NCBI GenBank assembly: GCA_945897825.1
Contig: CAMDGX010000003.1
Coordinates: 1-64,000, forward strand
DNA from: Asaia bogorensis
Lineage (GTDB): Bacteria; Pseudomonadota; Alphaproteobacteria; Acetobacterales; Acetobacteraceae
Length of the DNA: 64,000 nucleotides
Direction: 5' to 3'
Part shown: one piece after another, positions 2,679 to 46,198 of the stretch
Layout: each line of letters starts with the position of its first letter
Numbering within the stretch: the first letter of the stretch is position 1
Notes under the pieces: model-generated
What the model was told of the DNA's origin: nothing
Database searches by the model: none
What the model saw: the letters and a program-made list of their open reading frames with translations, nothing else
Made by a program: the position numbers and the translations under genes

Positions 2679-3551
2679 ATGGACCTGCCGCTTCCCGACC
2701 TCGCCCTCACGGCGCCTCCCGTAACGGTGCTGCGCCCGCCGGCCGCGACCGCGCCGATCGTGTTCGCGTCGCCGCATTCCGGGCGCGACTACCCTTCCGA
2801 CTTCGTCGCCGCCTCGCGGCTGGATGCCCTGCGCCTGCGCCGCAGCGAGGACAGCTTCGTCGACGAGCTGTTCGCCGCGGTGCCGGCGATGGGCATGCCG
2901 CTGGTCTGCGCCACCTTCCCGCGCGCCTATGTCGATGCCAACCGTGAGCCGTGGGAGCTGGACCCGGCAATGTTCGCCGACGCCCTGCCCGCCTGGGTCA
3001 ACACTGCCAGCCCCCGCGTCGGCGCCGGGCTTGGCACCATCGCGCGCGTGGTGGCCTCCGGCGAGGCGATCTACCGCGGCAAGCTGCGCTTCGCCGAGGC
3101 GGAAGCCCGGGTGCGCGACTGCTGGGAGCCGTTCCACGCCGCCCTCGCCGCCGAGCTGGAAGCGACCCGCGCGCATTTCGGCGCCGCCGTGCTGATCGAC
3201 TGCCACTCCATGCCCGCCAGCTCCCTGCCGCCGCGCAGCCCGGTGGACATCGTGCTCGGCGACGCCCACGGCACCGCCTGCGCGCCCGCGGTGATGCAGG
3301 CCGTCGAGGAGGAACTTCTCGCCCTCGGCTTCACCGTGCGCCGCAACGACCCCTATGCCGGCGGCTTCATCACCCGCCACTACGGCCGGCCGCGCGACTC
3401 GGTGCACGCCGTGCAGATCGAGCTCAACCGCACGCTCTACATGGACGAGGCGCGCATCGAGCGCCTGCCGGGCTTCGACGGGCTGCGCGCCACCCTCTCG
3501 CGCGCCATCGCCGCCATTGCCGCGCGCATCGCGATCCTCAAGCTGGCCTGA
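2679..3551 (+). CDS. N-formylglutamate amidohydrolase family protein
   Basis: A 290-residue protein of the N-formylglutamate deformylase family, which releases glutamate and formate from N-formylglutamate at the end of histidine breakdown in many proteobacteria. Family hallmarks seen are SPHSGRDYP near residue 31, the block NREPWELDPAMF, the metal-binding DCHSMP, and ITRHYGRP near the C-terminus. No hut genes are nearby, so the physiological role could differ from histidine catabolism. The ATG at 2679 follows a short intergenic stretch after tRNA-Val with no strong Shine-Dalgarno sequence. Confidence 0.9.
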   Translation: MDLPLPDLALTAPPVTVLRPPAATAPIVFASPHSGRDYPSDFVAASRLDALRLRRSEDSFVDELFAAVPAMGMPLVCATFPRAYVDANREPWELDPAMFADALPAWVNTASPRVGAGLGTIARVVASGEAIYRGKLRFAEAEARVRDCWEPFHAALAAELEATRAHFGAAVLIDCHSMPASSLPPRSPVDIVLGDAHGTACAPAVMQAVEEELLALGFTVRRNDPYAGGFITRHYGRPRDSVHAVQIELNRTLYMDEARIERLPGFDGLRATLSRAIAAIAARIAILKLA

Positions 3552-3601
3552 GCCAACGCCCCGCGCCTTGGGCCCCGGGCCTCGGGCCTCGGGCCTCGGG
3601 C

Positions 3602-3688
3602 AAAAAAAAGGGCGGTGCCCGCAGGCACCGCCAAGTTTAGGGAGGAAACGTCCAAGAAGCAGAGGGCAACCGGAGCCGCCCTGCTGCG
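3602..3688 (-). ncRNA. Alpha-r8/MmgR-like (suhB family) small RNA
   Basis: Read on the minus strand, a 5' stem-loop (GCAG-GGC pairing with GCC-CTCTGC) is followed by a single-stranded stretch containing UUUCCUCCCU (3639-3648). Next comes a perfect 9-bp terminator stem GGCGGTGCC/GGCACCGCC (3611-3632) and eight U residues (3602-3609). The UUUCCUCCCU motif between a 5' hairpin and a strong terminator is, from memory, the hallmark of the alphaproteobacterial alpha-r8 RNAs (MmgR, first catalogued as suhB). A good promoter lies immediately upstream. The C/U-rich motif is complementary to Shine-Dalgarno sequences, which suggests post-transcriptional repression of mRNAs in trans. No protein gene on this strand could use the terminator. 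Confidence 0.82.
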
Positions 3689-3694
3689 ATGCAC

Positions 3695-3723
3695 AATCTA
3701 TGGCGCCGGTCGTTCGTGTGCAA
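3695..3723 (-). promoter_or_regulatory. Sigma-70-type promoter of the small RNA
   Basis: On the minus strand, TTGCAC (3718-3723) and TAGATT (3695-3700) are separated by exactly 17 nt. The predicted transcription start falls near 3688, at the base of the small RNA's 5' hairpin. The match to the -35/-10 consensus and the position both support a dedicated promoter. Confidence 0.7.
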
Positions 3724-3869
3724 GCGATATTTCGCATTGCAGCATTTCCCTCGTTGCGCAGGCAGCCCCCCTTGCCAACCCGGCAAGCGACCAACAGCCG
3801 GCACGACGCTCATACCCCTGGCAGGATTGTGATTCCCGCGGCCATCCCGGGCGCGATATGCAGGGCGCC

Positions 3870-4643
3870 ATGTTCCAGAAATCCTTTTCAGCCCTCGCCG
3901 CCCTTCTCGCCCTCGCCCTTTCGCCCGACGCCCGCGCATCCCAGCCGGCCGGGCTCGCGCCAGGCGACCAGTGCCGCCACGCCATCATCGCCGCCGAGCG
4001 CGCCGCCGCCATCCCGCCCATGCTCATGTCGGCCATCGCCCGCGTCGAAAGCGGGCGCCCCGACGGGCGCGGCAACGTTGCCCCCTGGCCCTGGACCATC
4101 AACGCCGAGGGCGCGGGCCAATATTTCCCCACCAAGGACGCCGCCCTCGCCGCCGTGCGCGCGCTGCAGGCCCAGGGCGTCCGCTCGATCGATGTCGGCT
4201 GCATGCAGGTCAACCTGCACCACCACCCGCACGCCTTCGCCACGCTGGAGCAGGCATTCGACCCGGCGACGAACGCCGCCTATGCTGCGCGCTTCCTCAA
4301 CGAACTGTATGCCGGCACCCGTGACTGGACCCGCGCCACCGCCTTCTACCATTCCCAAACCCCGGAGCGCGGCGAGGCCTACCAGCGCCGGGTCGCCGCC
4401 GCCCTGCCCGCGGAACTTCGCCGCGGCACCGGCCTTGGCCTGCACCAGGCCAATGTCTGGTCGGTGAATGCCTTCACCCGCAACGCCTGGAACACCACGG
4501 CCGGCCGCCCCGTCGGCCCCGCCACCGGCCCCCTCGCCCGGTCCGGCCGCCCCGTCGTCGCCGCCCGACCCACCCCTGTCCGCCCTGCCCCCGCCCGCCC
4601 CGCGACGGTCGCAACCCTGGCCGCCAGCGAAACCCGGTTCTGA
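3870..4643 (+). CDS. Secreted lytic transglycosylase (SLT domain)
   Basis: A 257-residue exported murein lytic transglycosylase. A signal peptide (MFQKSFSALAALLALALSP, with likely cleavage after ARA) precedes the SLT fold. The catalytic Glu sits in IARVESG, and the conserved GCMQVNLHHHP and AFYHSQTPE motifs follow. The last 60 or so residues are a Pro/Ala/Arg-rich low-complexity tail. An upstream in-frame ATG at 3858 would add MQGA; 3870 is preferred because CAGGG is placed 6-7 nt before it. The 3' end overlaps the next reading frame by 176 nt. It would cleave peptidoglycan in the periplasm. Confidence 0.88.
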   Translation: MFQKSFSALAALLALALSPDARASQPAGLAPGDQCRHAIIAAERAAAIPPMLMSAIARVESGRPDGRGNVAPWPWTINAEGAGQYFPTKDAALAAVRALQAQGVRSIDVGCMQVNLHHHPHAFATLEQAFDPATNAAYAARFLNELYAGTRDWTRATAFYHSQTPERGEAYQRRVAAALPAELRRGTGLGLHQANVWSVNAFTRNAWNTTAGRPVGPATGPLARSGRPVVAARPTPVRPAPARPATVATLAASETRF

Positions 4644-6048: not shown

Positions 6049-6161
6049 AAGCAAGCGGTTCTTTTTTGAAAAAAAGAACCAAAAAACTTTCCCAACTAAA
6101 TCGAGGCCAAATGGGAAAAGTCTTTTTGCTTCTTTTTCTTCAGAAAAAGAAGGCCTTGCTT
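6049..6161. repeat. A/T-rich nested palindromic element, copy 1
   Basis: Outer arms AAGCAAG (6049-6055) and CTTGCTT (6155-6161) enclose hairpin A (arms GTTCTTTTTT / AAAAAAGAAC, 6058-6079) and hairpin B (CTTCTTTTTC / GAAAAAGAAG, 6129-6152). The middle arms CTTTCCCA / TGGGAAAAG also pair. The whole element can fold as one imperfect palindrome or as separate hairpins with U-runs on both strands. It fills the gap between convergent genes: it starts directly after the glycosyltransferase TAG, and its right end supplies part of the TAA of the CoA-transferase gene. A bidirectional terminator function is inferred. Confidence 0.85.
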
Positions 6162-7305: not shown

Positions 7306-7442
7306 AGCAAGCATGTTCTTTTTTGAAAAAAAGAACCAAAAAACTTTCCATCCATTCGCACCGCGCCCGAACGGCGCCCACTGTGCCAATGGATGAAAGT
7401 CTTTTTGCTTCTTTTTCTTCAGAAAAAGAAGATTCTTTCTTC
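7306..7442. repeat. A/T-rich nested palindromic element, copy 2
   Basis: Same architecture as copy 1: hairpin A (arms GTTCTTTTTT / AAAAAAGAAC from 7315) and hairpin B (CTTCTTTTTC / GAAAAAGAAG, to about 7432). The middle arms are different in sequence but still complementary (CTTTCCATCCATT against AATGGATGAAAG). The element ends next to the stop codon of the acyl-CoA dehydrogenase (7443-7445) and reaches almost to the ribosome-binding site of the CoA-transferase. In this copy it therefore lies in the 5' leader of a downstream gene and could terminate or attenuate read-through. Confidence 0.85.
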
Positions 7443-14521: not shown

Positions 14522-14632
14522 AAGCAAGCCCTTCTTTTTTGAAAAAAAGAAGCAAAAAACTTTCATCCTTTAAGCACGGCGCCATTGGATGAAGTTTTTT
14601 TGCTTCTTTTTGTTCACAAAAAGAAGGTCTTA
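14522..14632. repeat. A/T-rich nested palindromic element, copy 3
   Basis: Outer arm AAGCAAG begins 2 nt after the RND pump stop. Hairpin A here has arms CTTCTTTTTT / AAAAAAGAAG, where copies 1 and 2 have GTTC / GAAC: both sides changed together. Hairpin B is CTTCTTTTTG / CAAAAAGAAG, again a paired change. The middle arms are CTTTCATCC / GGATGAAG. The right end overlaps the stop codon (14630-14632) of the convergent minus-strand gene. Paired changes in two separate stems indicate that the fold itself is maintained. Confidence 0.87.
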
Positions 14633-19445: not shown

Positions 19446-19573
19446 AGAAAGAACGTTCTTTTTTGAAAAAAAGAACCAAAAAACTTCCCCCCATTCGCGC
19501 CGCGTTAGCCCCGGCGCCATGGATAAAAAGTCTTTTCGCTTCTTTTTCTTCAGAAAAAGAAGACCCTTCCTTC
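19446..19573. repeat. A/T-rich nested palindromic element, copy 5
   Basis: Hairpin A (GTTCTTTTTT / AAAAAAGAAC, from 19455) and hairpin B (CTTCTTTTTC / GAAAAAGAAG) are the same as in copies 1 and 2. The middle arms are weaker (CTTCCCCCCAT against ATGGATAAAAAG). The right end abuts the stop codon of the minus-strand GST gene (19574-19576). The left end is 63 nt from the + strand stop, the loosest fit of the family. Confidence 0.83.
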
Positions 19574-38148: not shown

Positions 38149-38287
38149 AAGGAAGGCGTTCTTTTTTGAAAAAAAGAACCAAAAAACTTTTTCCATTTGT
38201 ATCGGCGAGTCCGTGTAGGGCACGGCGCAAAGTGGAAAAAGTCTTTTTGCTTCTTTTTCTTCAGAAAAAGAAGGCCTTGCTTTCCTT
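38149..38287. repeat. A/T-rich nested palindromic element, copy 6
   Basis: Outer arms AAGGAA / TTCCTT, then hairpin A (GTTCTTTTTT / AAAAAAGAAC) and hairpin B (CTTCTTTTTC / GAAAAAGAAG). The middle arms CTTTTTCCA / TGGAAAAAG differ from all other copies yet pair fully. The element begins 1 nt after the SDR stop and ends 33 nt before the next ATG on the same strand. It is the only copy between two + strand genes. Confidence 0.87.
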
Positions 38288-46064: not shown

Positions 46065-46198
46065 AGGAAGCACGTTCTTTTTTGAAAAAAAGAACCAAAA
46101 AACTTTCACCCCTTTGCACTGCGCCAAGCAGGAAAGCAAGGTACAGAGGGGAAAAATTCTTTTTGCTTCTTTTTCTTCAGAAAAAAAAGTGCTTCCTT
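46065..46198. repeat. A/T-rich nested palindromic element, copy 7
   Basis: Outer arms AAGGAAGCAC (46065-46074) and GTGCTTCCTT (46189-46198) are a perfect 10-bp inverted pair, different in sequence from copy 1. Hairpin A is the standard GTTCTTTTTT / AAAAAAGAAC. Hairpin B is slightly decayed on its right arm. The middle arms CACCCCTTTG / CAGAGGGG pair with sequence unique to this copy. It starts 2 nt after the M24 gene stop and its right end overlaps the stop codon of the convergent GST gene (46197-46199). Confidence 0.87.

Follow-up and report, generated by a model that had tools for sequence, protein, structure and literature searches.

MmgR, a known bacterial regulatory RNA, limits phasins and the plastic-like carbon reserve PHB in S. 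meliloti (PMC8401924). Its promoter is bound and repressed by PhaR, which is in turn sequestered by PHB, and in EMSA the protein bound its site at this promoter, CAATTGTGCACCGCAGCATTA (PMC12542648). In Caulobacter, a wide range of mRNAs is repressed by SisA, an RNA that pairs via its core together with Hfq; linkage to an N-formylglutamate amidohydrolase (FGase) gene and a 10-mer are given as the hallmarks of alpha-r8 RNAs (PMC12559287). The alpha-r8 family, its FGase linkage, and the PhaR control of one of its members are already known. For S. meliloti mmgR, Ceizel Borella et al. reportedly noted in 2018 that the PHB-related promoters of other alpha-proteobacteria share a conserved dyad. No description of a PhaR operator pair at fixed spacing, mostly missing from paralogs, was found in the literature cited here.

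The window, i.e., the whole 64-kb stretch of Asaia bogorensis DNA analysed, harbors on its minus strand a locus which belongs, practically beyond doubt, to the alpha-r8 (RF00519) family. The covariance model search with Rfam RF00519 (suhB/mmgR, alpha-r8), proposed as a check by the sequence-only reading that had recognized an alpha-r8/MmgR-type small RNA here, matched positions 3674-3596 of the minus strand with 57.7 bits (E 2.9e-9), clearly passing the gathering cut-off of 41 bits; the identification is borne out further by the usual FGase neighbor and by the PHB machinery and Hfq of the same genome. Our own model R1 gave 95.8 bits for the window sRNA, which is itself in the R1 training set. 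For the window RNA, the fold energy is -44.3 kcal/mol (z -4.6), which none of 200 dinucleotide shuffles equalled. Minus-strand ORFs spanning the sRNA exist mechanically in the ORF list. The features of the locus are the following:

3602..3688, minus strand: alpha-r8/MmgR sRNA, whose transcript is estimated to run from 3688 (+/- 2) to the U-run
3659..3687, minus strand: 5' stem-loop of the MFE fold, with a 5' arm that starts within GCAGCA, the inner half of the proximal operator
3639..3648, minus strand: anti-Shine-Dalgarno seed UUUCCUCCCU, part of the conserved block CUUGGACGUUUCCUCCCUAAACUUGG
3602..3632, minus strand: Rho-independent terminator from the terminator scan (9-bp stem, 4-nt loop, C, 8 T)
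3718..3724, minus strand: putative -35 element CTTGCAC, read from the sequence, with CTTGC kept in relatives
3695..3700, minus strand: putative -10 element TAGATT, read from the sequence, with TAnnTT kept in relatives
3727..3747, minus strand: distal PhaR/AniA-like operator AAATGCTGCAATGCGAAATAT, 25.5 bits, immediately upstream of -35
3679..3699, minus strand: proximal PhaR/AniA-like operator AGATTGTGCATCGCAGCAGGG, 16.9 bits, which overlaps both -10 and the start site
2679..3551, plus strand: FGase-family gene (PF05013, 259.5 bits), convergent with the sRNA
3864..4643 (start approximate), plus strand: SLT-domain lytic transglycosylase-like gene (PF01464, 35.2 bits), divergent from the sRNA

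The estimated transcript is ~87 nt long vs. 77 nt in S. meliloti MmgR (SmelC689), with which it shares the seed UUUCCUCCCU and the terminator layout. The motif (TTTCCTCCCT at 3648-3639 on the minus strand), the perfect 9-bp terminator stem (arms GGCGGTGCC/GGCACCGCC, 3632-3611), and the eight U residues (eight T at 3609-3602) picked out by the sequence-only reading are all exact in the minus-strand sequence, and the 5' hairpin that it described is present at 3687-3659 in the MFE fold. A 5' hairpin folds in relatives as well, but 70% of shuffles meet the same energy threshold, so this test of the hairpin is uninformative. In the relatives' alignment, five pairs of the terminator stem display two-sided changes preserving the pairing, and the seed block is nearly invariant across 23 relatives. 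In the MFE fold of the window RNA, a 3-bp helix with GGA takes up UCC, three bases of the 10-nt seed; at least eight of the ten seed bases are unpaired in the MFE fold of only 19 of 60 sequences. Short tandem GGGCCTC units occupy positions 3570-3601, directly after the sRNA terminator and before the FGase stop codon.

The FGase linkage, usual but non-obligatory for alpha-r8, is present at the window locus (PF05013), and both the FGase and the SLT neighbors recur beside the sRNA in relatives (on the SLT side, as documented by tblastn synteny). Such family-wide linkage, reported also in PMC12559287, would be explained if the transcript or its terminator protected the 3' end of the convergent FGase mRNA or interfered with it. 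Still, a cis effect of this kind is very improbable, since ~50 nt separate the end of the sRNA from the FGase stop codon, the seed is invariant and the spacer is not, the U-run terminator works on the minus strand only, and the paralogs are located elsewhere.

The putative promoter consists of TTGCAC (3723-3718), a 17-nt spacer, and TAGATT (3700-3695) on the minus strand. The sequence-only reading was right about the spacer, whereas its description of the promoter as consensus-like needs qualifying: the hexamers agree with the E. coli consensus at only 3/6 and 4/6 positions, and no promoter was listed at the sRNA locus by the sigma-70 scan. The arrangement CTTGC-N17-TAnnTT is conserved among relatives, between the two PhaR-like sites. 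Judging from these alignments, the predicted sRNA promoter is better supported by conservation in relatives than by the E. coli consensus.

The two PhaR/AniA-type palindromes around the promoter were absent from the sequence-only reading. Scored with a matrix of 19 S. meliloti PhaR sites from PMC12542648 (the mmgR site left out), the distal and the proximal site are ranks 1 and 2 of all 21-mers in the window, rank 3 being 12.2 bits. The predicted operators lie 48 bp apart and flank the sRNA promoter. The proximal one scores only 16.9 bits in the window, which was counted against the PhaR-gated reading; its sequence nearly equals the S. meliloti mmgR PhaR site (TTGTGCACCGCAGCA in S. meliloti vs. 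TTGTGCATCGCAGCA here). One PhaR site is listed for S. meliloti mmgR (PMC12542648), whereas two are predicted at the window locus. Two PhaR palindromes flank a promoter element in the S. meliloti phaP1/phaP2 promoters as well; PhaR-repressed phasin promoters differ, however, in serving protein-coding genes and in their spacing, e.g., ~56-60 bp in several phasin promoters of the relatives. Phasin promoters of relatives often carry two PhaR-like sites ~56-58 bp apart (L139-L142, L162, L153, L157).

The Asaia genome itself encodes one PhaR, two phasins, one PhaC, and one Hfq (PF17209, 111.7 bits), and PhaR-like sites are found upstream of its phaR (23.8 bits) and phasin 1 (24.5 and 18.3 bits) genes. 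The palindromes might bind another regulator instead of PhaR, e.g., NtrC, which has been reported as an activator of S. meliloti mmgR (PMC7143759). This is improbable: the sites fit the PhaR matrix, comparable ones precede phaR and a phasin gene, and the alpha-r8 copy (L025) of G017, a genome in which phaR was not found, is without a PhaR site (best score -2.8). Control of the window sRNA by PhaR is highly probable.

A model built from 23 relatives and applied to the FGase loci of named genomes revealed the alpha-r8 RNA in 58 of 80 loci, some of the other 22 ending near the gene. The RNA-bearing loci belong mostly to Acetobacteraceae and Rhodospirillales, including Roseomonas-type bacteria, Elioraea, Acidocella, and Azospirillum. 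Judged by its closest named FGase relatives, the genome of the window falls within Acetobacteraceae or close to them. At least one PhaR-like site (at least 11 bits) is present upstream of alpha-r8 in 57 of these 58 named FGase-linked relatives; the background is ~1 such site per 3,200 positions, as counted on loci containing true sites. In the relatives, TGCTGCANTGCAAAAA is situated upstream of -35 and TTGTGCATCGCAGCA over -10 and the start site. The site pairs are spaced 47-49 bp in 21 of the 57 site-bearing named relatives, plus the window; elsewhere, the spacing is ~120 bp (Azospirillum-type loci) or ~19 bp (Acidocella-type loci). Whether a fixed two-operator PhaR clamp, with the operators 48 bp apart and covering the stretch from immediately before -35 up to the start site, is the lineage-wide control of the FGase-linked alpha-r8 of Acetobacteraceae appears evenly balanced. 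It is hardly credible that the window locus represents a degenerate or unexpressed sRNA copy, since its seed, terminator, hexamers, and operators are all intact and conserved.

The co-occurrence of phaR and alpha-r8 points in the same direction as the operators: in 59 sampled genomes, an over-cut-off alpha-r8 match was found in 37 of 42 relatives with phaR vs. 1 of 17 without it (Fisher p 2.8e-9, uncorrected for kinship and genome size). Within the family, the corresponding figures are 28/30 and 1/5.

Two further, weaker alpha-r8-like loci exist in the genome, whereas a single alpha-r8 gene is ascribed to S. meliloti (PMC12559287). The first (L002 1501-1581, G000:C27; RF00519 37.4 bits, below the cut-off of 41) keeps GTTTCCTCCC just upstream of a prolyl-tRNA synthetase-like (proS-like) ORF named from its sequence, and it is taken as a putative alpha-r8 paralog. 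The second (L003 1501-1578, G000:C65; 30.6 bits, also below 41) has GAAGCCTCCCT, sits between a LysR-like ORF and another ORF, and is a less certain alpha-r8 copy. Caulobacter crescentus SisA, which shares the core and the FGase linkage with the window RNA, likewise has several siblings in its genome, and their promoters differ; unlike here, no PhaR control is reported for SisA in the passages cited from PMC12559287.

No PhaR-like site was found upstream of either weaker locus. Among relatives, the copies with the core TGACTGGCGTTTCCTCCC, to which the proS-linked locus of the Asaia genome also belongs, are mostly without PhaR-like sites, and so is a third, more divergent alpha-r8 type; the exceptions among these site-poor types are L182, L183, and L202. 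A main-type copy without an FGase gene nearby (L015) likewise has no PhaR-like site. As separate observations, a PhaR-like palindrome (21.2 bits) is located at L002 1653-1673, downstream of the putative paralog and ~80 bp before the proS-like ORF, and a TTGTGCATCGCAGCA site equal to the proximal mmgR operator is present between two ORFs at around position 1500 of L043 (G000:C134:6617-6631).

Taken as a whole, the window RNA is quite probably a PhaR-gated, presumably Hfq-dependent, trans-acting alpha-r8 sRNA. It would be driven by its own sigma-70-type promoter, held between the two PhaR operators. At low PHB, PhaR (AniA) would sit on both operators, blocking the -35 and the -10/start region; upon the formation of PHB granules, PhaR would be titrated onto them and the promoter released, so the sRNA would be made together with other PhaR-repressed genes, e.g., that of a phasin. 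The Hfq-dependent sRNA would then pair via UUUCCUCCCU with the ribosome-binding sites of several mRNAs and decrease their translation, holding back both storage and the use of carbon. Both the release on PHB accumulation and the translational repression at ribosome-binding sites should be expected by analogy with MmgR and SisA.

Repression by anti-Shine-Dalgarno pairing is probable, and the earlier reading's prediction of many mRNA targets from the motif is plausible. There are nine perfect seed complements in the genome, one of which is the sRNA gene itself; one candidate target is L209, whose complement precedes a possible GTG start. Four others (L206, L208, L212, and L213) lie inside an intergenic repeat and L207 in a sequence resembling it, so they were rejected and not counted as targets. 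The start region of phasin 1 of the same genome pairs with the sRNA at -20.1 kcal/mol and ranks among the best 2% of 45 gene starts, although the starts were set by a simple GC-frame rule, making this ranking weak, and the z value vs. shuffled cores is only about -1. The phasin leaders of more distant relatives mostly show no enrichment of pairing.

A palindromic repeat, GGTTCTTTTTTTCAAAAAAGAACC, has six copies in the window (6057-6080, 7314-7337, 14530-14553, 19454-19477, 38157-38180, and 46073-46096), none being expected by chance. Most copies follow GAAAGTTTTTT or a similar sequence on the same strand; the repeat also occurs on several further contigs and looks like a terminator-like intergenic element.

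The target data bear on another reading, in which the window RNA is an alpha-r8 regulator of the general, SisA-like kind whose main targets are mRNAs for uptake and carbon use, with the PhaR control real and PHB not the main output. This is a serious possibility, if not the one we favor. SisA itself represses a broad mRNA set (PMC12559287); no phasin-specific pairing signal was found here; and G017 keeps an alpha-r8 RNA, with neither phaR nor a Phasin_2 protein found there. Two observations tell against this reading: phaR and one phasin gene share the operators, and S. meliloti contains more PHB and phasins once the core is deleted (PMC8401924). A net effect of the sRNA on PHB in the host organism is, on balance, slightly favored.

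Overall, the PhaR-gated reading extends, by sequence, the S. meliloti PhaR-MmgR circuit to most of the FGase-linked alpha-r8 copies examined, covering Acetobacteraceae and other Rhodospirillales-type bacteria. It predicts that the PHB sensor gates one alpha-r8 gene per genome but not the siblings of that gene. The two-operator clamp, if true, would tie the FGase-linked RNA to the PHB sensor and leave the sibling alpha-r8 copies on other signals; one seed would serve several inputs per genome.
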